The translations under genes and the position numbers were made by a program. The notes below the pieces were generated by a model. The model was not told the DNA's origin. It was given only the letters and a program-made list of their open reading frames with translations, and made no database searches. Positions 9,714 through 21,832 of a stretch of 64,000 nucleotides of DNA are shown here, piece by piece (within the stretch, counting starts at the first letter, position 1; each line of letters opens with the position of its first letter). Origin of the DNA: Longispora albida DSM 44784 (GTDB taxonomy: Bacteria > Actinomycetota > Actinomycetes > Mycobacteriales > Micromonosporaceae); the NCBI RefSeq assembly GCF_000379825.1, contig NZ_KB903837.1:70762-134761 (forward strand), in the 5' to 3' direction.

Positions 9714-9719
9714 GGTGTG

Positions 9720-11180
9720 ATGCCGGGTCTCCATCACGCAGTCCTCGAAGCCGGTGATGCCGCCGTCCTGGTCGTCGACCCCGGTGACCTGGGGGTGCGG
9801 TGGGCCTCGCCTGCGGCCGGCCGGTTGCTCGGCTTACCCGGCGGTGTCTCCGGCCGGTTTCCGGAGCTGGTCGTGGCCGCCGACGCCGCACGGGTCGCCA
9901 CGCTGCTGATGGCGGTGGCCGGGCGGGGCGAGGTCTCGCGGTGCACGTGCGCGGTGCCGGTCGGCGGCTCCGCCGACCGCCGCGTGGATCTCGTGATCCG
10001 TGACCTGAGCGCCGATCCGGAGATCGGCGGGCTGGTGGTCACCGCCTCCGACGTGACGGCGTGGGCCGAGCTGGCCGACCGGCTCGGCGACCGCCTGAAC
10101 ACCGATCCGCTCACCGGCCTGGCCAACCGGATGGGGTTCCTGCCCCGGCTGGAGCAGGCGATCCACAGTGCACACGAGTCGGGGCCGGGGCCGGTGCTGA
10201 TGTTCCTGGACCTCGACCAGTTCAAGTACGTGAACAACCATCACGGGCACGTGGCCGGTGACGAGGTGCTGAGGCAGATCGCCGCCCGGATCGCGGGGGC
10301 TGTCGACGGCCGGGGCACAGCAGCGCGGTTCGGTGGCGACGAGTTCCTGGTGCTGCTTGACCGGTCGGACGCTGAGGAGGCCAGGGCTGCGGCTGACGAG
10401 ATCCTCAGCGCGGTGAGCGTGCCACTCCGCCTGCCGGGTGAGCCGGGTGAGGAGTTCAGTCCGGCCATGTCGGCCGGTGTCGCGCTCGTGCGCCCCCGCC
10501 GCCTGCCGCAGGAGCTGCTGCGCGAGGCGGATCTCGCGATGTACCGGGCGAAGGCCCTCGGCCGTTCCAGGACGGTCGTCTACGACCCGGGCCTCGAAGA
10601 CTGGGAGGAAGCGCGCCACCAGCAGGCCGACCGGCTGGCCGCCCAGGTCGAGCAGCTCCAGTCGGAGAACCGCCGGCTCGCCAGGGCCGCCCTCACCGAC
10701 CAGCGCACCGGCCTGCCGAACAGCGCGGCCTTCGACGCGGACCACGCGCGGGCGCACGACGCCGGAGAGCCGTACAGCCTGCTGCTCATCGATCTCGACC
10801 TCTTCCACTCCTACAACGCGCACTACCTCTACCTCGCGGGCCACGAGACGCTCCGGAAGGTCGGCCAGGCGATCCGGCAGGCCGTCCCGGCGGCCAGGAC
10901 GTACCGCTACGGCGGGGAGGAGTTCGCCGTCCTCCTGCCCGGCACGCGGCTGCCCGGCGCGATGGCGGCCGGCGAGCAGGTCCGGCTGGCCGTCGAGGCG
11001 CTGGGCATCGAGCACTGCGGCAACCCGAGCGGCGTGGTGACTGTGTGCGTCGGCGTGGTGGAGGCCAGCCAGCCGTCCACTGTGACCGATGCCGTCGAGC
11101 AGGCCAGCATCGCCGTACTGGAGGCGAAGGACACCGGCCGCAACCGCACGGTCGGCGCGAAGGTCCCAGTGAGGTCCTAG
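9720..11180 (+). CDS. tandem-GGDEF diguanylate cyclase with N-terminal PAS-like sensor
   Basis: A 486-aa cytoplasmic signalling enzyme predicted to make cyclic di-GMP from two GTP. Residues 1 to about 115 look like a PAS-type sensor (AAVLVVDPGDLGVRWASPAAGRLLGL). The first GGDEF domain starts DPLTGLANRMGF, has LMFLDLDQFKYVNN for metal and base binding, and the intact motif RFGGDEFLVLL at about 204. A second, separate GGDEF domain starts DQRTGLPNSAAF, has LLIDLDLFHSYNA, and the intact motif YGGEEFAVLL at about 398. No RxxD inhibitory site is seen before either motif. Most such enzymes have one GGDEF domain. Codon 39 is TTA, a rare codon in this genome. ATG at 9720 is chosen over the adjacent GTG because of TAGACT 6 nt upstream. 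Confidence 0.87.
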   Translation: MPGLHHAVLEAGDAAVLVVDPGDLGVRWASPAAGRLLGLPGGVSGRFPELVVAADAARVATLLMAVAGRGEVSRCTCAVPVGGSADRRVDLVIRDLSADPEIGGLVVTASDVTAWAELADRLGDRLNTDPLTGLANRMGFLPRLEQAIHSAHESGPGPVLMFLDLDQFKYVNNHHGHVAGDEVLRQIAARIAGAVDGRGTAARFGGDEFLVLLDRSDAEEARAAADEILSAVSVPLRLPGEPGEEFSPAMSAGVALVRPRRLPQELLREADLAMYRAKALGRSRTVVYDPGLEDWEEARHQQADRLAAQVEQLQSENRRLARAALTDQRTGLPNSAAFDADHARAHDAGEPYSLLLIDLDLFHSYNAHYLYLAGHETLRKVGQAIRQAVPAARTYRYGGEEFAVLLPGTRLPGAMAAGEQVRLAVEALGIEHCGNPSGVVTVCVGVVEASQPSTVTDAVEQASIAVLEAKDTGRNRTVGAKVPVRS

Positions 11181-11798: not shown

Positions 11799-12728
11799 TC
11801 AGCCTGCCTGCTGGACGGCCAGGCGGAGGGAACGGTGCAGGAGCCGGGCGTCGCCGAGCAGGGCGCGCAGCCGGCGTTCGAGCCCGCCGATCGGCAGGAG
11901 GTTCTGCGGGGCGCGCGGATCCTTGTACGGGCTGGACGCCAGCTTGGGCAGCGTGACCGCCGACAGGCCGGCCAGCTCGACGACGTCGGCGACGGGGAGG
12001 CCAGGCTGGCACTCGACGCGGACGACGCCGGCCCACGGGGAACCGTCGCCGCCGGGCAGCTGGAGGTACCAGGTGTAGCGCTCCCACACGCCGGACAGCT
12101 TGAAGATCGGGGTCCGCTGGCCGGGCGTGAGCCGCCCGACGATGGCCACCTGGGCCGGTGGCAGGTACTGCGTCCGGTGCGTCTTGATGTACCCGAGGGC
12201 CCGGTGCAGCGCCGCCCGCCCGCCGAGCGGGCCGTCCACGATGATCAGGTCGTGGTCGGAGCCGGCGTCGGCAGCCGCCTTGATCTCCAGTTTGCGCAGC
12301 CGGTCCTGGATGGCGGCGACCAGGTACTCCTGGTCGCCGTTGCTGGCCGGGTACGAGGTGTAGACGGCGCCACGGATCGGCGGGATGTCGAGCTGGGCCG
12401 CCGAGAACACGCCGCGTTCGAGGAGCGGCGTGCCGAGCGTGGCACTACCGGCTGCCAGGTCGCACGTGACGACGCCCGCCGCGTACGAGGCGGCGATGCC
12501 CAGGTGGGGCGGCCCGCCGTCACCGGCGTCCCGCCAGACCCGGCCGTCGATCCGCCGGACGCCGTCGACGAGCCGGATGAGCCGGGCCTCGGCGACGGAC
12601 GGCGGGCTGACCGGCTCCCACTCCACCTCCTCGACCTCGGTGTCGACCCGGACTTCCGAGGCCGAGCGCTCGTCGCCGGACAGCGACGAGCCGTACGAGG
12701 GGTCCCAGGTGTCGACGTACAGGCTCAT
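11799..12728 (-). CDS. nurA: NurA-like 5'-3' nuclease
   Basis: A 309-aa protein resembling NurA-domain nucleases, which with the HerA translocase resect DNA ends to give 3' single strands. Seen: RLIRLVDGVRRIDGRVW near 48-64 with the first catalytic Asp-Gly, DHDLIIVDGPLGG near 160 with the second, GYIKTHRTQYLPP near 180, and the C-terminal block DPRAPQNLLPIGGLERRLRALLGD, which I associate with bacterial NurA proteins. It is the third gene of an sbcD-sbcC-nurA operon and its ATG overlaps the sbcC stop by 4 nt, a context that strongly supports the call. A HerA-like ATPase is encoded 6 kb upstream on the same strand. Nuclease activity is inferred. Confidence 0.78.
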   Translation of the reverse strand: MSLYVDTWDPSYGSSLSGDERSASEVRVDTEVEEVEWEPVSPPSVAEARLIRLVDGVRRIDGRVWRDAGDGGPPHLGIAASYAAGVVTCDLAAGSATLGTPLLERGVFSAAQLDIPPIRGAVYTSYPASNGDQEYLVAAIQDRLRKLEIKAAADAGSDHDLIIVDGPLGGRAALHRALGYIKTHRTQYLPPAQVAIVGRLTPGQRTPIFKLSGVWERYTWYLQLPGGDGSPWAGVVRVECQPGLPVADVVELAGLSAVTLPKLASSPYKDPRAPQNLLPIGGLERRLRALLGDARLLHRSLRLAVQQAG

Positions 12729-15145
12729 CCGACCCTCTTCACGGTCGCGCTGACAGCTGACTTGCTGACCTCGAACCGGACGGGGATCCGCTCGGCCAGC
12801 GAGGGTACGTGCGTGACGACGCCGACGAGCCGGTCCCCGCGCGCCGCGAGGTTCTCCAGGGTCGCGGCGACAGTGTCCAGTGTGGCCGCGTCGAGGGTAC
12901 CGAAGCCCTCGTCGAGGATGATCGAGCCCAGGGCGGCCGAGGTCTCCGACATGCCGGACAGCCGCTCGGACAGCGCGAGGGCCAGGGCGAGGGACGCCTG
13001 GAAGGTCTCGCCGCCGGACAGGGTGCGCACGGTCCGGCGCAGGCCGGCGTCGAACTGGTCGACGACGAAGAACTCGCCCTTGTCGTGGCCCAGCTCGTAC
13101 TGCCCGCCGGACAGCTCCAGCAGCAGCGCCGAAGCCCCGTCGACCAGCTGGTCCAGCGCCTCCTCCAGCAGCCAGCGCTTGAAGTTGGTCGCCGTGAGGT
13201 GCTGGGCGAGGGCCCGGGCCGTGCGGGCCTCGGCCTCGTGCCCGGCCCGCTGCTCGCGGAGCTGCCTGGCCCGCTCGGCCGCCTCGGTGAGCCGGTCGAC
13301 GGCGGCCGAGGCGCGTTCGACGGCGACGGCCGCGTCCCGGACGTACTGCCCGCTCGTCGGCACCGCCGCCGCCCGGAACAGGTCCTCCACTGTGGAGCGT
13401 GCCGCCGTCAGGGTCTCGGCCGCCGAGCCGGACGCGGCCAGGGCTGCCTCCCGGATCGCGGTCAGTCCCGTGGTCCGGTCGGCGGCCCAGGCGGTCAGCG
13501 ACTGCCAGGAGCCGGGCAGGTTCTCGCGATCGGGTGCCGGGGGTTCGTACCGCGCGACCGAGTCCCGGGCCCGGTCGTAGTCGCCCCAGGCCCGCTGCAC
13601 GGCCGCGCGCGCGCCGTCAGCCTCGTTCTGGGCAGCCTGCCGGTAGGACCGCAGCTTCCGCAGCTCGACGCCGGACGCCTCCAGCCGCTTGGCCAGATCC
13701 TGCGCGGCGGCCAGAGCCTCGGCCGCGCTGGCCCGGTCCAGCTTGCCCGCGAACCAGGCCTCGGCCTTCGCCATCCGCTCCCGCGCCCCGGCCAGATTCG
13801 CCCGGTGCGTGGTCAGCTCCCGGTCCGACTCCCGCAGCACCCGCTCGGCCTCGCCGTGCGCGGCCCGGGCCGCTGAGAGCCTGCGGTCAGCCTCGGTCAG
13901 CCTCTCACTGTTTTGTACCTGCGGCAGAGAGTGCACTGGCTGCGCGCATACCGGGCAGTCCTCGCCCGTGACCAGGTGCCCGCGCAGCGCTGCGGCCAGC
14001 TCGGCGTCCCGCGCCTTGTCCCGGGCCGCCTCGGCCTGCCGGACCGCGAGGGCTGCCTCTTCCACTGTGGACACCCGGGCGCCATGTGCCTGCTCGGCGA
14101 CCGCGAGAGCGGCAGCGTGCCGGTCGATCTCACCCGGGATCTCGTCGGCCCGGTCGTAGGCGTCGAGGAGCTTCGCGAGGACGGCGGGGTCGCCGGCCGT
14201 GTCCCGGGCGCGGAGCAGCTCCTCCTCGGCCGCCTCACCGCCGCTGACCTCGCGGTCGGCGCGCCGCAGGGCCTCGATGGCCTCCGTCGCGCGTACATCC
14301 AGATGGGTCAGGTTGGGCGGGGTCTGGATGCCGCCGACGGCCCGGAGCTCTTCCTCTGCCCTGCGCAGGTCCTGAGCTGCTGTGGTGGCCGCCTGCTCGG
14401 CGGTCGAGAGAGCCGGCAGCGCGGTGTCGACCTCAGCCGCGAGCATGCTGAGCTGGGCGAGCCTCGCCGTGGCCTGGGCGATCTGGTCGTCGCCCGGCAC
14501 GTCGCCGGACAGCACTGAGTCGATCGCGTGCAGCTTGGCGTCGGCCTCCTGCGCCCGGCTGTTGGCGCGCTCGCGGATCTCGTCGTAGACCCCGAGGCCG
14601 AGCAGGTTGACCAGGATCTGCTGCCGGGTGGCCGGCGTGGCGTGCAGGAACTCGGCGAACGCGCCCTGCGGCAGCAGCACGCACGTGATGAACTGCTCGA
14701 AGGGCAGCCCGACAGCCTGCTCGACAGCCCGGTCCATCTCGGCGGGCGTGCCGGCCAGCACCTCGCCCAGCTGCTCGTCCGTCAGCCCGGTGTCGAGAGT
14801 GGACAGATCGAAGCCGGGATGCAGCCGCTCCAGCCCAGCGTGCTTGGTCTGCACCTGCTTGCCGACCCGCCGCACGACCCGCGAGGCCACGTACCGCTGC
14901 CCGGCCGCCTCGAAGACGAGCCGCACCCTGGCCTCGGCGCTCGACGGGGCCAGCGCGCCCGACACGCTCTTGCGCGGCCAGCGCGGCACCGTGCCGTACA
15001 GCGCGAAGCAGATCGCGTCGAGAAGCGTGGACTTGCCGGAGCCGGTCGGGCCGACCAGCGCGAACAGGTCGGCCCCGGTCAGGTCGAGGGTCGCGTGCTC
15101 GCGGAACACGGTGAAGCCCGCCACGTCGAGCCGCAGCGGCCTCAT
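12725..15145 (-). CDS. sbcC: exonuclease subunit SbcC (Rad50-like ATPase)
   Basis: An 806-aa SMC-type ATPase that with SbcD opens and degrades hairpins and blocked DNA ends. Walker A is GPTGSGKST at residues 32-40, followed by DAICFALYG. A long helical, coiled-coil centre carries the zinc hook GEDCPVCAQPVH near 395-400, through which two molecules join. The C-terminal half has the ABC signature LSGGETFQASLALALALSERL near 710 and Walker B SIILDEGFGTLDAATLDTV near 740. Length is below the roughly 1,050 aa of E. coli SbcC, owing to shorter coiled coils. The start codon overlaps the sbcD stop by 1 nt and its own stop overlaps nurA by 4 nt, so the three are translationally coupled. Confidence 0.93.
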   Translation of the reverse strand: MRPLRLDVAGFTVFREHATLDLTGADLFALVGPTGSGKSTLLDAICFALYGTVPRWPRKSVSGALAPSSAEARVRLVFEAAGQRYVASRVVRRVGKQVQTKHAGLERLHPGFDLSTLDTGLTDEQLGEVLAGTPAEMDRAVEQAVGLPFEQFITCVLLPQGAFAEFLHATPATRQQILVNLLGLGVYDEIRERANSRAQEADAKLHAIDSVLSGDVPGDDQIAQATARLAQLSMLAAEVDTALPALSTAEQAATTAAQDLRRAEEELRAVGGIQTPPNLTHLDVRATEAIEALRRADREVSGGEAAEEELLRARDTAGDPAVLAKLLDAYDRADEIPGEIDRHAAALAVAEQAHGARVSTVEEAALAVRQAEAARDKARDAELAAALRGHLVTGEDCPVCAQPVHSLPQVQNSERLTEADRRLSAARAAHGEAERVLRESDRELTTHRANLAGARERMAKAEAWFAGKLDRASAAEALAAAQDLAKRLEASGVELRKLRSYRQAAQNEADGARAAVQRAWGDYDRARDSVARYEPPAPDRENLPGSWQSLTAWAADRTTGLTAIREAALAASGSAAETLTAARSTVEDLFRAAAVPTSGQYVRDAAVAVERASAAVDRLTEAAERARQLREQRAGHEAEARTARALAQHLTATNFKRWLLEEALDQLVDGASALLLELSGGQYELGHDKGEFFVVDQFDAGLRRTVRTLSGGETFQASLALALALSERLSGMSETSAALGSIILDEGFGTLDAATLDTVAATLENLAARGDRLVGVVTHVPSLAERIPVRFEVSKSAVSATVKRVG

Positions 15146-16275
15146 CAGTGCATCTCCGTGTAGATCTTGTCGAACAGGTCCGCGACGGCCGGGTCGTCGT
15201 GGTTCTGCTCCGTCAGGTACGAGCGGAACAGCTCACGCGCGCTCCGCCCGGCCCGGACGGACCGCTGGGTGCGGGCCGCGTCGGCGAGCACCTCGGGGTC
15301 GATCCGGATGTCGAGCGCGTTCGGCAGCATGGCCTGCACCTCCTCGCGCAGGCCGGCCCGGGGCTTCTCGGTGATGAATACCCGCACCCAGGCGTCGGCC
15401 GTGTCGAGCTCGCGGAGCTGTTCGAGCGTGCCGCGCACGGTCCGCAGCTCCCTGGCCTGCGTCATCGGTACCGCGCGGACCCTGGCCGGGGTGTCGGGCG
15501 TGACCTCCACGATCACGGCACCCGGCGTGTTGTCCGCCTCGCCGAAGTCGATCGCCAGCGGGCTGCCCGAATAGTGCACTTTCGACGGTCCGGGTACCTC
15601 CTGGCGGCGGTGCAGGTGACCGAGAGCGACGTAATGAGTACTCGCGGGGAAGAGGGTGGTCGGGACCGCGTACTGCGCGATCGTGTGCGCCTCCCGCTCC
15701 CCGCCGCCGAGCCGCCCGCCCACGACGGTCAGGTGCGCGGTGATCAGGTTCACCGAGTCGGCGGTCTGGTCCTTGGTCAGCTCCGTGATCAGCCGGCCCA
15801 CGTGGTCGGCGTAGAGCTGGTCGGCCTCCGCGCTGGTCAGGTCGAACATCTCCGTCGCCCGTACCGCGAACCGCTGCGACAGCCACGGCAGCGCCAGGCA
15901 CCGCCACGGCTCGCCGCCCTCCGTGATACCCGTGACGACGAGGTCACGGCTGACCGCGCCCCGGATGTCGATCCCGGCCGCCGTGGCCCAGCCGCGCAGA
16001 GCCTCCAGCTCAGCGCCGTTGTCGTGGTTGCCGGCGATGGCGACGACCGCGCCGGCCCGCCTGCGCAGCGCGCTCAGCGTCCGGATGACGATCCGCTGCG
16101 ACTCGGCACTCGGTGCTGCGGTGTCGTAGAGGTCGCCGGCGACGATCACCAGGTCGGGCCGCTCGGCGTCGGCCAGGTCGACCAGCTCCTTGAGTACCCG
16201 GATGTGCTCCTCGGCCCGGGGGTTGCCCTTGAGGACCTTCCCGACATGCCAGTCGGAGGTGTGGAGGATCTTCAT
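15145..16275 (-). CDS. sbcD: exonuclease subunit SbcD (Mre11-like nuclease)
   Basis: A 376-aa manganese-dependent nuclease subunit. The calcineurin-type phosphoesterase motifs are all present in order: HTSDWHVGK (5-13), VIVAGDLYDTAAPS (44-57), AIAGNHDNG (79-87), LITAHLTVVGG (near 183) and YVALGHLHRRQ (near 217). A C-terminal capping domain follows. First gene of the sbcD-sbcC-nurA operon. The ATG lies after a possible weak -10 (GATACGGC) about 30 nt upstream, and a LexA-box-like sequence lies further up. I found no good ribosome binding site, but the N-terminus fits the family exactly. Confidence 0.93.
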   Translation of the reverse strand: MKILHTSDWHVGKVLKGNPRAEEHIRVLKELVDLADAERPDLVIVAGDLYDTAAPSAESQRIVIRTLSALRRRAGAVVAIAGNHDNGAELEALRGWATAAGIDIRGAVSRDLVVTGITEGGEPWRCLALPWLSQRFAVRATEMFDLTSAEADQLYADHVGRLITELTKDQTADSVNLITAHLTVVGGRLGGGEREAHTIAQYAVPTTLFPASTHYVALGHLHRRQEVPGPSKVHYSGSPLAIDFGEADNTPGAVIVEVTPDTPARVRAVPMTQARELRTVRGTLEQLRELDTADAWVRVFITEKPRAGLREEVQAMLPNALDIRIDPEVLADAARTQRSVRAGRSARELFRSYLTEQNHDDPAVADLFDKIYTEMH

Positions 16276-16348
16276 GCGGATACCGGCCTCATGCCTGCCA
16301 TCGTGCCGTATCGGTGTCGATCACCATCGGCAGGCACGCCGATGTTTT

Positions 16349-16364
16349 TTGAACACATGATCGG
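16349..16364. promoter_or_regulatory. possible degenerate SOS (LexA) box
   Basis: TTGAACACATGATCGG resembles the actinobacterial LexA site TCGAAC-N4-GTTCGA but with mismatches in both halves. It lies between the sbcD operon and the divergent MazG-like gene, where damage control would make sense. Confidence 0.25.
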
Positions 16365-16409
16365 ACCCCGGCCGTGCGGCCGCGCGTACCCGTGGCGGAA
16401 GATCGGTAC

Positions 16410-16745
16410 ATGACCGACACCGAGCGCCTTCACGCGCGGCTGCGCGCCTTCACCGCCGACCGGGGATGGGAGGAGTACCACACCCCGAAGAACCTGGTGA
16501 TGGCGCTCGCGGGGGAGACGGGCGAGCTTGTGGCCGAATTCCAGTGGCTCAGCCCGGAGAAGTCGGCGGCCGTGATGACCGACCCGGAGGCCGCGGCCCG
16601 GGTCAGCTCCGAAATGGCCGACGTCTTCATCTACCTCTCGCAACTCGCCATGCGGCTCGGCATCGACCTGCACGAGGCAGCCCACACCAAACTCGACGAG
16701 GTCGAACTCCGCTACCCGGTGGGAGTCCGCCCCCGCAACGTGTGA
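16410..16745 (+). CDS. MazG-like nucleotide pyrophosphohydrolase
   Basis: A 111-aa all-helical enzyme of the dCTP pyrophosphatase (RS21-C6) / MazG-like group, which hydrolyses (deoxy)nucleoside triphosphates to monophosphate and pyrophosphate, cleaning the nucleotide pool. The metal-binding signature is complete: GETGELVAEFQWL near 36-48 (E-x-x-E) and EMADVFIYLSQLA near 67 (E-x-x-D). The start is MTDTERLHARLR, with GGAAG 8 nt upstream. Divergent from the sbcD operon, so the neighbourhood is DNA-maintenance related. Confidence 0.85.
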   Translation: MTDTERLHARLRAFTADRGWEEYHTPKNLVMALAGETGELVAEFQWLSPEKSAAVMTDPEAAARVSSEMADVFIYLSQLAMRLGIDLHEAAHTKLDEVELRYPVGVRPRNV

Positions 16746-16751
16746 GGAGAG

Positions 16752-16962
16752 ATCACGGAGAGTGAGTATGCGAGTCTCGTTGAATATCTGGCCGGGAATG
16801 GAGCTGTCGTGCTCAGCAGTGTTTGCAGCTCCCCCTGATCCGGATGGGTGACGTGTTCCGGCTTCGTCCTGCTGGCGAGCTTCGCAGTGGCCAATCATCC
16901 GTCGCCTGGAGCAGAAGAGGAACTCGCCGAGCGGATCGCTCGCCACGTCGGCGCGGTGCGAT
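16752..16962 (+). pseudogene. possible decayed gene remnant
   Basis: In one frame the DNA reads ESEYASLVEYLAGNGAVVLSS and then stops; in another frame it ends with EEELAERIARHVGAVR before a stop. These look like the two ends of a small protein (an opening 'LVEYL...VVLSS' and a charged closing helix) with the middle lost and the frame broken. Local GC is lower than in neighbouring genes. No intact reading frame covers it. Confidence 0.25.
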
Positions 16963-16965
16963 GAA

Positions 16966-17011
16966 ACGATGCGGTGCCGCCTGACCGGGGTGTCAGGCGG
17001 CACCGCATCGT
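16966..17011 (-). terminator. 19-bp perfect stem terminator
   Basis: ACGATGCGGTGCCGCCTGA pairs perfectly across an 8-nt loop. It begins 2 nt after the stop codon of the DD-carboxypeptidase gene on the minus strand, so it terminates that transcript. Confidence 0.8.
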
Positions 17012-17013
17012 CA

Positions 17014-17760
17014 TCAGATCCCGCAGCTGGGTGCCGACCAGGACCGGCTCGACCGGATATCGACGTGGACGTGGTCGTTGTGGTCCGGGTATCCGGGGCC
17101 GAAGATGCCGTTGAAGCCCGCGTACCGGGCCTGCTGCGCGATCCGGCACAGCGTGACGCTGCCCGACACCAGGTCGAGAGCCGTGCCGTACGTGTGCTGC
17201 CCGCTGCCGGAGCCGCCCACCGAGGCGTCGCAGGCCTTGCTGCGGAAGCCGGACGTGACCGTCAGCGGGTACCCGCCGAGCTGCTTGCGCAGTGCCTCAG
17301 CCCGCCACATAGCCCGCATCAGGTTCGACTGGACGGTGGCGGCGCTGACACTGCCGCCAGAGTAGCCGCCCTGCCCGCAGCCACCGTCCACTTCGGACCA
17401 GGCGAAGTGTGCCGGGGTGCAGTCGTCGTCCTGGAGTTCGTAGAGCTTCGCGAAGGTGGCTGGGCCCGCGACGCCGTCGGCCGCCAGCCCGTACGCCGCC
17501 TGGAAGCGCCGGACGGCGTTGGTGGTCGCCGGGCCGTACGAGCCGTCGATCGACAGGACCTCGCCGTAGCTCATCCAGCCGGCCACGCGGATCTGGAGGG
17601 TGGTGACGTCGCCGCCGGACGTGCCCTGCGTGAGGGTCCTGTTCCAGGTGTAGCAGGCGTCGGCGTGCGCGGTGCCGGCAGTGAACACGCCCACTGTCAC
17701 CGTCGCGGCCACCATCACCGCGAGCGAGACGAACGTCCTCAGTGCTGTGTGGAGGGACAT
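17014..17760 (-). CDS. secreted zinc D-Ala-D-Ala carboxypeptidase (peptidase M15) with peptidoglycan-binding domain
   Basis: A 248-aa exported cell-wall enzyme built like the Streptomyces albus G carboxypeptidase. It has a signal peptide (about 1-33, cleavage near AHADA), a PG_binding_1 domain (about 40-107, DGSYGPATTNAVRRFQAAYGLAADGVAGPATFAKL), and an M15 catalytic domain. The zinc motif SGQHTYGTALDL (His and Asp) near 193 and the second motif HNDHVHVD near 229 are both intact. It trims the terminal D-alanine of peptidoglycan stem peptides outside the cell. Six cysteines suggest disulfides. Ribosome binding site GAGGAG is 4 nt before the ATG. Confidence 0.9.
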   Translation of the reverse strand: MSLHTALRTFVSLAVMVAATVTVGVFTAGTAHADACYTWNRTLTQGTSGGDVTTLQIRVAGWMSYGEVLSIDGSYGPATTNAVRRFQAAYGLAADGVAGPATFAKLYELQDDDCTPAHFAWSEVDGGCGQGGYSGGSVSAATVQSNLMRAMWRAEALRKQLGGYPLTVTSGFRSKACDASVGGSGSGQHTYGTALDLVSGSVTLCRIAQQARYAGFNGIFGPGYPDHNDHVHVDIRSSRSWSAPSCGI

Positions 17761-17914
17761 GGTGCTCCTCGGCTGTCTTCGTCAGTCCCCCGAACCGGCA
17801 CCGATGGTTCCGTAGCCGATCCACCCGAGTCAATGGACGGGCTCCCTCCTCCGGGGGAACAGTGCCCCTGCTCAGGGTGATCAGTTCGTGCCGCCGTCCC
17901 GGCAGGCTGACAGC

Positions 17915-18784
17915 ATGATCGCGAAGAGAGACCTGCTGGCGGGCTGCTGGCTCGCCGGATACGCCGCCGTGCTGGTGGCACGGCCGGACGGCGACCTGCT
18001 GCTGGCGCGGGGCTGGTGGGCCGCTGGCCTGTGCCTGGCAGCTGCCACGTCGGCGTTTCTTCTCCGGTACCGGGCGGCGCGGCCGGTCGCGTGGACCCTC
18101 GTCGCCGCGCTCGTCTTCTCCTGCCCGCTGTTCCTGCTCGACGTCGTGTACGGGCTGATCCCCGGCCTCGGCCCCGAGATCGACCCGCTCGCCGCCGCCA
18201 GCCGGGCCGCGTGCCTGATCGGGGCTGGCCTGCTGGCCAGGGCCGCCATCCAGCACGCCCGCGTCCACTGTGCCGCGTGCAGCCGCCGCGCCGTCGTCAG
18301 GGAACGCCGGCCGAGGTGGGCGTGGTGGGGCGCGTACGGGGCCATCGCGGCCTGCTTCGTCCGGATCGCGGCACAGGTCGTGGTCGGGTGGGGCGAGATC
18401 CCGCTGGAGCAGGGTGTGGCGCTCGTGGTGTTCGAGGTGGGGTTCGTGCTCGCCGGTACCCTGCTGCCGCTGGCGCTCGTGCACGACTTCGGGCGGGTCT
18501 GGCCCCGGTGGGTACCGTTCCTGGCTGGGCGGAAGGTCCAGCGCTGGCTCGTCCTCGGCCCGGCCTACGCCCTCGCCGGCGGGATCACCGTCTACTTCAC
18601 CGTCGTACTGGGCTACCTGACCGTCGAGACCGTCTCGGGCAGCTTCGTGGCCGACCCGTTCCCGCTGGCGTTCTTCTGGGTGGCCGTGCCCGGGTACCTG
18701 GCGTGGGGCGTCGGCCTGGGGATCGCCGCCATCGGGTACAACCTCGACACCCGCCAGCCATGCAAGGCCTGCGGCAGGCCGTAG
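17915..18784 (+). CDS. polytopic membrane protein with terminal CxxC pairs
   Basis: A 289-aa protein with about seven membrane helices starting at MIAKRDLLAGCWLAGYAAVLVARP. Between helices it carries CAACSRR (near 118) and it ends CKACGRP, two CxxC pairs that could bind a metal or form disulfides. Similar proteins occur in actinomycete genomes without a known role. The start is uncertain: a GTG 27 nt upstream is in frame, and only a weak AGG precedes the ATG. Convergent with the HerA-like gene, with a terminator in between. Function unknown. Confidence 0.65.
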   Translation: MIAKRDLLAGCWLAGYAAVLVARPDGDLLLARGWWAAGLCLAAATSAFLLRYRAARPVAWTLVAALVFSCPLFLLDVVYGLIPGLGPEIDPLAAASRAACLIGAGLLARAAIQHARVHCAACSRRAVVRERRPRWAWWGAYGAIAACFVRIAAQVVVGWGEIPLEQGVALVVFEVGFVLAGTLLPLALVHDFGRVWPRWVPFLAGRKVQRWLVLGPAYALAGGITVYFTVVLGYLTVETVSGSFVADPFPLAFFWVAVPGYLAWGVGLGIAAIGYNLDTRQPCKACGRP

Positions 18785-18794
18785 CGACCAGCAA

Positions 18795-18823
18795 ACGGCC
18801 CGGCTCTCCTGGAGCCGGGCCGT
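18795..18823. terminator. 12-bp stem between convergent genes
   Basis: ACGGCCCGGCTC and its perfect complement around TCCTG, 11 nt after the membrane-protein stop and 14 nt after the herA stop on the other strand; it can serve both. Confidence 0.75.
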
Positions 18824-18836
18824 CGCTGTGCGATGC

Positions 18837-20552
18837 CTAGAACGGGATGTCGTCGGTGCTGTCGCCGGCCAGGGCGAACGGATCGGCCTTCTGCGTGGCT
18901 GACCGGTGCGTGGTCTCCGGCGGGGAACCGGCCTCGCTCGGCCGGGTCGCCCACGACGGGAACGGGAACTCGACGACCAGCGGCACCGGGATCTCCGGCT
19001 GGGCCACGAACATCGTGCCCGGCTTGGCCAGCAGCACCCGCTGCCGCTGCGAGGCCGGCAGGAAGCCGTACTCCGGCCGCGAGGCCTCCGCCGGGTCGAG
19101 CCGCCCGACCACCCGGATCGCCGAGTTGGCCACGATCCGCCGCTCGACCTCGCTCGCGGTCTGCTGCGCGCCGATCAGGATCACGCCGAGGGACCGGCCA
19201 CGCTCGGCGATGTCGAGCAGGATCTCCTTGATCGGGCTGGTGCCCTCGCGCGGCGCGTACTTGTTCAGCTCGTCCAGCACGACGAACTGGAGCGGCTTGG
19301 CCGTGCCTGCCTTCTCCTTGCGCTCGAACTCGGTCCGCAGCGTGACACCCACGACGAACCGCTGCGCCCGGTCGGGGAGATTGTGCAGGTCGACGACGCT
19401 GACCTGCGCGTCGGTCGTGTCGATCCCGTGCGCGCGGCGCGGCGGCAGGTCACCGCGGATCAGCCGGGACAGGTCCTTCTTGCTGCCGATCAGGCGGCGG
19501 CTGAACGCGTTGACCGTGCCCAGCCCGACAGCCGACCCGGCCCACGTCCCGCGGGCGTCCTCATCGGACAGCTGCGAGCAGATGTAGTCGACCAGGTCCT
19601 CGTAGGACCCGAGCCGCTGGCCGTCGATCACGATGCCACCGTCAGCCGGCACCGCTGACCGCGCGAGGTGGGCTGTCACCTGATGCACCACCATCGTGTA
19701 CTGCTGGCGCTCGTCATCAGCGTCCGCGAACACGAACGGCAGCAGCCGGGACGTGCAGAAGTCCTCGAGAGTCCAGTAGAAGGCATCCACCCCGGTCGTC
19801 CGGCAGGCCACGTCCGGCGTGCCGGCCGCCGACCCGGCGCGCGGCGGCGCGAACACGGCCACCGACTTGAACGGGCCGGGCCTGAGCCCGAGCGCCGCGT
19901 ACCTCGCCTCGTCGTCGAGCTTCGCGTTCGGGTGGTCGAGGAGCAGCAGGTCCTCGCCCTTGACGTTGAAGATGAGCGCCTTCGTGTTGACCGCCTCGGC
20001 GCCGAGCACGCCCGAGTGGAACACCGAGTACAGCAGCCAGGTCGCGAAGCTCGTCTTCGTCGCCACGCCCGAGATGCCGGAAATGGAGACGTGTGCGCCG
20101 CGTGTGCCGTCCAGGAAGTCGGCGTTCAGGTACACCGGGGCGCCGTCGCGGCCCAGGCCCATCGGGATCCGGCGTTCCATCCGGTCGAAGTACAGGGCCG
20201 AGGCGCGCTCGTCGCCGGTCGCGCGGAACACGGTGCTGCCGGGGCGGGGCGGCACGTACACCTCCGGCTCGACCCGCGTCGTCGTGATCTCGGCAGCCTC
20301 CTGCACCTCGGCCGGCAGCTGCCCGGCGGAGATCGCGAACACGTCCGACTCGAACTGCGCGCCCTCGTGCCGGGCCCTGACCTGCGTGACCACCCCGGAG
20401 ATCGCGACCGGATCCCTGCCTGGCACCTCACGCCGGGTGACCACGACATCGTCGAGCTGGAGGTACGCCCCCGGCTGCACTGCCACCCAGAAGGTCAGTG
20501 GTGTCGCGTCGGCGGTGCCGAGGACGAGGCCGACCGGTTCGCTCTCCGTCAT
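18837..20552 (-). CDS. herA: HerA-like DNA translocase ATPase
   Basis: A 571-aa protein of the DUF87 / HerA group, hexameric ATPases that pump DNA and work with NurA and Mre11-Rad50 in end resection. The N-terminal 90 residues fit the HAS-barrel (GLVLGTADATPLTFWVAVQPGAYLQLDDVVVT). The P-loop region reads SISGISGVATKTSFATWLL near 155-173, lacking the glycine before Lys that a standard Walker A has. Walker B LQFVVLDELNKYAP lies near 420, and the sensor/arginine-finger part SLGVILIGAQQTASEVERRIVANSAIRVVGRLD follows. Start chosen at MTESEPVGLV, 6 nt after CACGAT. Proximity to sbcD, sbcC and nurA supports the role. Other DUF87 functions such as conjugation-type pumps are less likely. Confidence 0.75.
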   Translation of the reverse strand: MTESEPVGLVLGTADATPLTFWVAVQPGAYLQLDDVVVTRREVPGRDPVAISGVVTQVRARHEGAQFESDVFAISAGQLPAEVQEAAEITTTRVEPEVYVPPRPGSTVFRATGDERASALYFDRMERRIPMGLGRDGAPVYLNADFLDGTRGAHVSISGISGVATKTSFATWLLYSVFHSGVLGAEAVNTKALIFNVKGEDLLLLDHPNAKLDDEARYAALGLRPGPFKSVAVFAPPRAGSAAGTPDVACRTTGVDAFYWTLEDFCTSRLLPFVFADADDERQQYTMVVHQVTAHLARSAVPADGGIVIDGQRLGSYEDLVDYICSQLSDEDARGTWAGSAVGLGTVNAFSRRLIGSKKDLSRLIRGDLPPRRAHGIDTTDAQVSVVDLHNLPDRAQRFVVGVTLRTEFERKEKAGTAKPLQFVVLDELNKYAPREGTSPIKEILLDIAERGRSLGVILIGAQQTASEVERRIVANSAIRVVGRLDPAEASRPEYGFLPASQRQRVLLAKPGTMFVAQPEIPVPLVVEFPFPSWATRPSEAGSPPETTHRSATQKADPFALAGDSTDDIPF

Positions 20553-20665: not shown

Positions 20666-21832
20666 ATGACGCGCACAGTCACGCTGATCCTGGCCGCGCT
20701 CGACGGGGAACCCTGGGGCGCGCTGCCGCCCTTCGAGACCGTCATGCCGTGGTGGCAGGAGGTCACAGAACCCGTCGCGGCCGCCAGGGAGCTCCACGGG
20801 CTCGACGTCACCATCCTCCGGCTGCTCAGCCACGGCCCGGCCCAGCCCGGCGGCGAGGTCAGCTACCTGGCCGCCTGCTCCTCGCCCCGGCCGGACGGGC
20901 TGACCCCGGTGGAGATCGACGTGTCCGACCATCCGCTGCGCGCGCCCTACGCCAGGCCCGGCGGCCCGGCCCGCTCGCTGACCTGGGCTCGTGACCTGAT
21001 CGGCGGCTTCGAGGCCACCCAGATGCGCACCTGGAACCTGTCGAGCATCTGGCGCCTGGACAGCGTGGCCGGAGCCGGGCGCGTCTGGCTGAAAGAGGTA
21101 CCGACCTTCTTCCACCACGAGGCAGCCGTGCTCGGCTGGCTCGCCAGGCACCAGCCCGGCTACGGGCCGGAGCTGATCGGGGCCGACGCCGGCCGGATGC
21201 TGCTGGCTGACGTGGCGGGCGAGGACAGGTACGGCGCGACCGCCGCCGACCGGGCCGCCTTCCTGACCCGGCACGCCACGATGCAGGCCCGCGCCGCGAG
21301 CCAGGCCGGCGAGCTGCTGGAACTCGGAGTACCCGACCGGCGGAGCGCCCCGCTGACCGCCCGCATCCGGGCGGCCACCACCCAGTACGGCCCCCAGGCC
21401 GGCCTGCCGGACGGGGACCTCAGCCTCCTGGACGGCCTCGACGAGCGCCTGGCCGCCGTCGTGGACTGCGGCATCCCCGAGACGCTCGTGCACGGTGACT
21501 TCCACCCGGGCAACCTGCGCGGCGGTAGCGGCGACGACATCGTCCTCGACTGGGGCGACAGCTTCGTCGGCCACCCCGGCTTCGACGCGCTCCGGATGAC
21601 AGAGGACGTACCGGACCCCGAGCCCATCCTCGCCGCGTGGTCGGCAGCCTGGCGCGCTGCGGTCCCCGGCTGCGAGCCCGAACGGGCCCTGGACCTCCTC
21701 CGCCCCGTGGCCCCGCTCCACCAGGCCCAGATCTACGCCGGCTTCCTGGACCGCATCGAACCGTCCGAGCGCGGCTACCACGAGGCCGACCCAGCGTCCT
21801 ACCTGGACAAAGCAGCGAAGATGCTGGGATAG
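20666..21832 (+). CDS. aminoglycoside-phosphotransferase-fold kinase with extra N-terminal domain
   Basis: A 388-aa protein. The C-terminal two thirds are an APH-type kinase fold: a lysine strand VWLKEVPTFFHHEAAVLGWL near 140, the catalytic loop TLVHGDFHPGNLRG near 275, and the metal-binding VLDWGDSFVGHPGFDALR near 292. This fold phosphorylates small molecules such as aminoglycosides, choline or homoserine. The first 100 residues (VTLILAALDGEPWG, WWQEVTEPVAAARELHG) resemble a degraded Nudix-type domain, lacking the glutamate box. TAGCGT lies 8 nt before the ATG. No resistance context, so a metabolic substrate is just as possible. Confidence 0.75.
   Translation: MTRTVTLILAALDGEPWGALPPFETVMPWWQEVTEPVAAARELHGLDVTILRLLSHGPAQPGGEVSYLAACSSPRPDGLTPVEIDVSDHPLRAPYARPGGPARSLTWARDLIGGFEATQMRTWNLSSIWRLDSVAGAGRVWLKEVPTFFHHEAAVLGWLARHQPGYGPELIGADAGRMLLADVAGEDRYGATAADRAAFLTRHATMQARAASQAGELLELGVPDRRSAPLTARIRAATTQYGPQAGLPDGDLSLLDGLDERLAAVVDCGIPETLVHGDFHPGNLRGGSGDDIVLDWGDSFVGHPGFDALRMTEDVPDPEPILAAWSAAWRAAVPGCEPERALDLLRPVAPLHQAQIYAGFLDRIEPSERGYHEADPASYLDKAAKMLG

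Follow-up and report, generated by a model that had tools for sequence, protein, structure and literature searches.

The locus analysed here raises the question of whether counterparts of mre11, rad50, herA and nurA, which in archaea lie in one operon, form a working set in an actinomycete. It sits in a 64,000-nucleotide stretch of Longispora albida DSM 44784 (NZ_KB903837.1, positions 70,762 to 134,761; the whole stretch is called the window below), and the initial annotation of this DNA had suggested that it may be an extra, archaeal-type resection pathway of this organism, with a MazG-like enzyme in the neighbourhood. We find that the four archaeal-like functions (NurA, HerA, SbcD and SbcC) are indeed present and linked on one strand, and that the cluster resembles the archaeal set in layout and, judging by its protein sequences, is built from bacterial-type proteins. 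We consider it probable that the four genes constitute one DNA-end-processing machine that serves recombination repair beside AdnAB.

All four genes are read from the reverse strand. The herA gene (18837..20552) is predicted to encode a Deinococcus-type bacterial HerA, a double-stranded DNA translocase of 571 residues, and lies 2561 bp upstream of sbcD (15145..16275), which encodes a 376-residue Mre11-like nuclease of a type peculiar to the cluster. These are followed by sbcC (12725..15145), for a Rad50-like ATPase of 806 residues with the zinc hook CPVC at residue 397, and by nurA (11799..12728), for a 309-residue NurA nuclease with an RNase H-like fold. Because sbcD and sbcC overlap by 1 nt (TGATG) and sbcC and nurA by 4 nt (ATGA), the translational coupling suggested at the outset agrees with the sequence, as does the placing of a HerA-like ATPase gene some 2.6 kb upstream on the same strand.

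The suspected NurA is matched by its family profile, PF09376, at 26 bits (Pfam cut-off 21, E 8e-6). Its best PDB sequence match is NurA of Deinococcus radiodurans (drNurA; 7f6d_H, E 5e-21), and a profile of 31 NurA homologues reaches the same chain at 6.4e-54 and Thermotoga TM1739 at 1.3e-19. An AlphaFold2 model (predicted local distance difference test score, pLDDT, 88.7) has an RNase H-like fold matching solved NurA structures, namely 7f6d_G (E 6.8e-18, template-modelling score TMq 0.72), 1zup (1.4e-14) and archaeal 2ygk (5.3e-7). A search of the source genome returned a single NurA, the one in the cluster. Residues described for drNurA and for D. radiodurans HerA (drHerA) in PMC9960219 were mapped via PDB alignments, in which every aligned residue of the paper had the stated letter. 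On this mapping the catalytic D53, K201 and R309 of drNurA correspond to D55, K182 and R272 of the window protein, and these three, together with W8, a Trp common to both proteins, are invariant in alignments of 31 and of 45 rows.

The 571-residue protein matches drHerA (7f6d_B) at E 1.6e-149, the alignment covering residues 4-300 and 310-541. The drHerA residues K175/T176, D487/E488, R495, R552 and R513 are found as K166/T167, D427/E428, R435, R492 and R453, and these catalytic and pore residues are invariant in 24 homologues, except that R435 is nearly invariant; also kept are drHerA K217, D220 and D78, and not kept are R154 and R96. The earlier assignment to DUF87 did not survive: the protein has no Pfam DUF87 match at E<=1 and falls below the NCBIfam HerA models NF040819 (16.3 bits, cut-off 970) and NF040937 (9.5 bits, cut-off 800), being a Deinococcus-type HerA instead. 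Nor does it belong to an unrelated branch, since it matches drHerA and co-occurs with NurA, as detailed below. In a HerA tree it falls, among Actinomycetota rows, in a 38-row clade of Micromonosporaceae and Glycomyces (support 99), Glycomyces counting as part of the family in this grouping, and it is 90% identical to the HerA of a genus-mate. The tree is a quick one without archaeal rows; the divergent loci L152 and L247, described below, form long branches in it, several titles of metagenome-assembled genomes (Gammaproteobacteria, Cyclobacteriaceae and others) may be mislabelled, and no conclusion is drawn from its deep branching.

The SbcD passes the NCBIfam model TIGR00619 (171.1 bits, cut-off 77.65), has the motifs SDWH, GDLYD, GNHD and GHLH, and has no second SbcD match beside it in the source genome at E<=1e-15. 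For SbcC, the Pfam domains AAA_23 (2.8e-18) and SbcC_Walker_B (1.5e-11) both pass, and Walker A, the zinc hook CPVC, the signature LSGGE and the Walker B motif LDEGFG are all present; the score against NCBIfam TIGR00618 stays below the cut-off (246.8 bits against 478.5), and the predicted product is a short SbcC/Rad50-like protein. The four proteins of the catalytic set are thus identified, with their predicted catalytic residues intact. Among 41 relatives searched, source genome included (25 Micromonosporaceae and 16 other genomes of the order), SbcD of the cluster type (E<=1.3e-103) is the sole SbcD match in all 27 genomes that have both HerA and NurA, while the 14 without HerA-NurA have a distant SbcD (7 genomes) or none at 1e-15 (7 genomes). 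Compared with the SbcD of order-mates that lack HerA-NurA, the window SbcD shows 31-39% identity, and among these 41 genomes the cluster SbcD appears to be a distinct, single-copy type, a distinction drawn from scores rather than from a tree.

HerA and NurA themselves are found in the same 27 of the 41 relatives: all 25 members of the family and 2 of the 16 other members of the order. Across a phylum sample of 296 Actinomycetota genomes (HerA counted at E<=1e-10, NurA at E<=1e-3), HerA was found in 92 and NurA in 64, and every one of the 64 NurA-positive genomes was also HerA-positive (Fisher p 4e-43); these searches, and the AdnB search described below, scored the best few candidates per genome, which leaves absences uncertain. 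Outside Micromonosporaceae, this sample includes 8 genomes of the same order and 16 of the same class, and HerA was found in none of them. Over 86 loci, the pairwise distances within each of the four proteins are correlated with one another (Mantel r 0.84-0.93, 0/999 permutations as high), which joint inheritance of the set predicts but plain shared descent would equally produce. One HerA homologue of the sample (G285:C1:1026861-1028573) has one in-frame TGA in the matched stretch.

By hand count, nurA and herA lie on one contig and one strand, at most 18 kb apart, in 60 of the 64 NurA-positive genomes of the phylum sample, with nurA directly upstream of herA in 40 of the 60 and herA upstream of nurA, 3.5 to 18 kb between them, in 20. 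Among the 24 other genomes of the family, we read the locus in all but G003, G006 and G020, whose genes are on different contigs, and found a conserved herA-sbcD-sbcC-nurA arrangement on one strand at all 21, with the herA and sbcD matches less than 200 bp apart in 19 and 3.1 and 4.6 kb apart in the other two. In genome G002 (C1:1864547-1868416, in L114), nurA and sbcD each match in two pieces, perhaps through frameshifts or sequencing errors. The same gene order is found at L132, a locus of a different family within the taxonomic order, and at 14 of 17 other phylum loci picked for having both genes on one contig, the remaining three (L149-L151) reading nurA-herA-sbcD-sbcC; with the divergent locus L152, 40 other loci were read (21 of the family, L132, 17 of the phylum and L152). 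A named genome collection was in addition scanned with the HerA alignment, and the best 80 loci of at least 593 stretches (at least 586 relatives) were examined; they are the top matches to an Actinomycetota query in an uneven bacterial sample, and a few of them come from genomes already among those above. Picked by HerA alone, 53 of the 80 read herA-sbcD-sbcC-nurA, 21 end at contig ends and 6 are incomplete despite sufficient length. The linkage of herA and nurA is more than chance, in that both genes occur in the same genomes and in a conserved order, and the cluster looks like standard kit of Micromonosporaceae.

A plasmid collection yielded six records with HerA, four of them with a NurA match, and the three loci read comprise two herA-sbcD-sbcC-nurA and one nurA-herA-sbcD-sbcC; a Nonomuraea record of this collection, at 11.85 Mb, is therefore surely a chromosome. 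A 451 kb linear Streptomyces plasmid carries the full herA-sbcD-sbcC-nurA set (L245; NZ_CP134205.1, 412745-430454), adjoining type II Wadjet genes and a peptidase gene. A cyanobacterial plasmid classed as conjugative has the order nurA-herA-sbcD-sbcC (L247; AP018315.1, 40013-53722); nurA and herA are annotated there as hypothetical, and the NurA is just below the Pfam cut-off (18.5 of 21 bits).

Is this set a substitute for the usual actinobacterial resection enzymes or an addition to them? Two adjacent genes of the source genome match the helicase-nuclease structures 6ppu_B (2.8e-192) and 7sjr_A (1.1e-165), which we take to be mycobacterial AdnB and AdnA, and the source genome gave no RecC match. 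The predicted HerA-NurA-SbcCD set is here an additional machine beside AdnAB-like genes, so that the idea of an extra pathway holds up; its restriction to this organism was too narrow, given its presence in 25 of 25 family members. A distribution complementary to that of AdnAB was considered and dropped, as the source genome's AdnB, searched against the 296 genomes, gave no clean complement: 280 of the 296 match at 1e-20, including helicases such as UvrD, and such counts do not separate AdnB. Many genomes with NurA and HerA have long AdnB-like matches, others helicase-level ones only. A RecC search of 20 genomes, namely the source genome and 19 drawn from those whose AdnB match is weak (E 5.7e-57 or worse), gave 13 with RecC, the source genome not being one of them. 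In Thermus, nurA/herA are described as coexisting with addAB (PMC13140390).

Set against known systems, the window proteins are closest in kind to D. radiodurans NurA-HerA (PDB 7f6d, 7wrw, 7wrx; PMC9960219), with which they have in common the HerA family over nearly the full length, the NurA fold, and the catalytic and translocation residues. The window NurA is, however, shorter (309 residues against 369 in the 7f6d chain, with a numbering offset of 20); moreover, the D. radiodurans nurA-herA pair is described in PMC8708640 as unclustered with sbcCD, whereas the window set is linked to sbcCD, and the Deinococcus phylum is said in PMC9960219 to be without RecBCD/AddAB, whereas the window set coexists with AdnAB-like genes. 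A bacterial four-gene linkage like the present one is described for Oceanithermus profundus, with sbcD and sbcC downstream of nurA-hepA (PMC5448004); this is one organism, in which its authors infer a later recruitment of sbcCD. The Oceanithermus order, nurA-herA-sbcD-sbcC, matches that of the Actinomycetota loci L149-L151, while in Micromonosporaceae nurA stands at the opposite end. The archaeal operon links the same four functions, but the window HerA does not qualify under DUF87 or the NCBIfam HerA models, and archaeal NurA is a remote fold match to the window NurA (2ygk at 5.3e-7, against 6.8e-18 for D. radiodurans). SbcCD of the E. coli type is of the same family and has the same motifs, but its SbcC model spans 1043 positions, against the 806 residues of the window SbcC, which scores below the NCBIfam SbcC cut-off.

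We propose that SbcCD, the bacterial Mre11-Rad50, would recognise and open a blocked or protein-bound DNA end, that a HerA hexamer would then, by ATP hydrolysis, thread the duplex into a NurA dimer, and that the NurA dimer would split the duplex and cut the 5' strand, yielding a 3' single strand for RecA; the whole set would act beside AdnAB. For D. radiodurans, a 6:2 HerA-NurA complex with ATP-driven 5' resection is described, in which HerA feeds the duplex into the NurA dimer, leading to unwinding and cutting of the 5' strand (PMC9960219), and herA and nurA mutants are reported to have reduced intermolecular recombination (cited in PMC4663267). The window HerA and NurA presumably form the same complex, though we infer their binding from co-occurrence and not from residues, because the interface residues are only partly kept. 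That bacterial SbcCD would hand ends to HerA-NurA is suggested by analogy with archaea, and homologous-recombination repair is the presumed purpose of the cluster in vivo.

Several observations weigh against this reading. At the level of residues, only R117, K299, K306, R336 and R339 of the 12 basic interface positions of drNurA are kept; H89, R92, K303, H305 and R337 are changed, and R121 and H124 are unaligned. The acidic NurA-binding patch of HerA is likewise only partly kept, D78 being D70 but E80 and D81 being replaced by F72 and A73; the acidic interface residues of drHerA are said to align poorly outside Deinococcus (PMC9960219). In the phylum sample, NurA went unmatched in 28 of the 92 HerA-positive genomes. 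A single family, f32, whose HerA is distant, accounts for 25 of these, and of the remaining three, G109 and G249 have HerA on short contigs and G313 a distant HerA. Parts of the cluster are missing from 6 of the 59 informative named loci, with no NurA in the 2-4 kb after sbcC at L169, L192 and L195 and no SbcD in the 3-6 kb after herA at L173, L190 and L218, and two of the six HerA records of the plasmid collection have no NurA match. A damage-inducible promoter was looked for and discarded, as neither an SOS box nor a RecA-independent damage promoter, both searched as consensus patterns, had a match near the cluster genes. As for phenotypes, D. radiodurans without nurA-herA survives ultraviolet light (UV) and mitomycin about 10-fold better (PMC9960219), the contribution of nurA/herA to its radioresistance is described as small (PMC4663267), and inactivation of Thermus nurA and herA is linked to UV resistance in a title cited in PMC13140390. 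The Deinococcus mutants speak against a role that simply promotes survival, and such a role is unproven in the literature examined, which also yielded no bacterial SbcCD interaction with HerA or NurA; even in archaea, the connection of Mre11-Rad50 to HerA-NurA is called unclear in PMC8708640.

Of the f32 loci, one was read (G148, L152). Comparison of profiles identifies the 387-residue open reading frame that precedes herA there as a divergent NurA (probability 96, E 2e-9), although it has no match in Pfam or in a PDB sequence search. The locus (L152:2351-9596) reads as a divergent nurA-herA-sbcD-sbcC, of which Pfam matches neither NurA nor HerA.

Other explanations overlap with the preferred one, and the likelihoods given to them are not meant to add up to certainty. 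The four genes might be two independent machines in one neighbourhood, SbcCD cleaning hairpins and HerA-NurA resecting, with the linkage reflecting co-expression only. Such a split would suit D. radiodurans, whose nurA-herA are described as unclustered with the Mre11-Rad50 homologues (PMC8708640), and Thermus, for which the same is described (PMC5448004), as well as L173, L190 and L218, where no SbcD was seen in the 3-6 kb after herA. We nevertheless doubt it: the four genes are linked in 53 of the 59 informative named loci and in two gene orders overall, the NurA proteins of the linked lineages are mostly 30-50% identical to the window NurA, and the cluster SbcD scores as its own type and is the sole SbcD there (scores only). 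A recent acquisition of an archaeal operon would fit the linkage of the same four functions in archaea, but its probability is close to nil. The significant PDB sequence matches of both proteins are of the bacterial type (7f6d and 1zup for NurA, 7f6d for HerA), with archaeal 2ygk a much weaker fold match; the HerA cut-offs of DUF87 and NCBIfam are unmet; and the window HerA nests in the Micromonosporaceae and Glycomyces clade (support 99) among Actinomycetota, in a tree with no archaeal row. The proteins are thus not of the archaeal type first proposed, and we reject transfer from archaea on sequence type and on the place of HerA among Actinomycetota.

Genome defence, in which the set would degrade phage or plasmid DNA entering the cell, starting at the ends, and recombination repair would be a side effect, is in our estimation unlikely, if less so than archaeal transfer. 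In the Streptomyces sp. BB1-1-1 plasmid, herA-sbcD-sbcC-nurA adjoins type II Wadjet (JetA2/JetB2/JetC2) and an ImmA/IrrE-family peptidase; two cyanobacterial plasmids have nurA beside herA, and the one read also has sbcD-sbcC. TdpAB, a HerA-NurA-like defence pair, is a weak fold match of NurA (8wfd). The improved survival of D. radiodurans on loss of nurA-herA (PMC9960219) would fit as well. Against defence, the set is present in single copy in 25 of 25 sampled family genomes and the HerA tree looks vertical, unlike patchy defence genes; PADLOC gives no match for NurA (E<=1) and only weak partial ones for HerA (best mad8, 34 bits), and six neighbouring window proteins are without a defence domain (Pfam scan only, no PADLOC). 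A phage origin was also considered and rejected, with three weak phage matches only.

Returning to the single end-processing machine, we tentatively entertain a wider form of it, which in its entirety we hold to be somewhat less probable than not: that HerA-NurA with its own SbcCD type may be an ancient and general bacterial resection machine. On this view the arrangement nurA-herA-sbcD-sbcC would perhaps go back to the Actinomycetota ancestor or beyond; one large branch would have switched to herA-sbcD-sbcC-nurA, the set would have persisted alongside AdnAB or RecBCD, and most other families of the source class would have lost it. Deinococcus and Thermus, the groups in which it has been studied, would then have reduced forms in which the SbcCD link was lost, which could explain the puzzling mutant phenotypes. 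Already known are the linkage, reported once in a bacterium (Oceanithermus), and homologues of HerA and NurA in Actinobacteria, which have been mentioned before; the breadth in Actinomycetota and the dedicated SbcCD appear unreported. A literature search over titles and the beginnings of abstracts found, among the matches listed, no actinobacterial four-gene cluster, an earlier mention being possible. The finding widens the published view of bacterial NurA-HerA as limited to few bacteria, for instance Deinococcus-Thermus (PMC9960219; likewise PMC11442139). Cultivable Micromonospora hold the conserved four-function cluster, and AdnAB-like genes might keep mutants alive; the hand-off from SbcCD to HerA-NurA is therefore directly testable there.

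What remains is the DNA between and around the four genes. The stretch between herA and sbcD (16276..18836) lies outside the four-gene set and holds a mazG-like gene (16410-16745, forward strand, divergent from sbcD), an M15 peptidase gene on the reverse strand and a third gene on the forward strand, without a Pfam match and read as encoding a membrane protein. Because 19 of 21 other family loci have less than 200 bp here, we take the 2.56 kb gap to be a local insertion; in the same-genus genome G001 the spacing is about 0.1 kb. At E<1e-6 the 40 other loci read gave no match to any of the three genes, and mazG is not part of the cluster, so that the MazG-like enzyme was rejected as a partner. 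Upstream of herA and divergent from it, a gene at 20666-21832 encodes a phosphotransferase domain of the APH type (5.5e-14); the 40 other loci gave no match to it, and beyond the nurA end of the cluster lies a PAS-GGDEF diguanylate cyclase gene (9717-11180).

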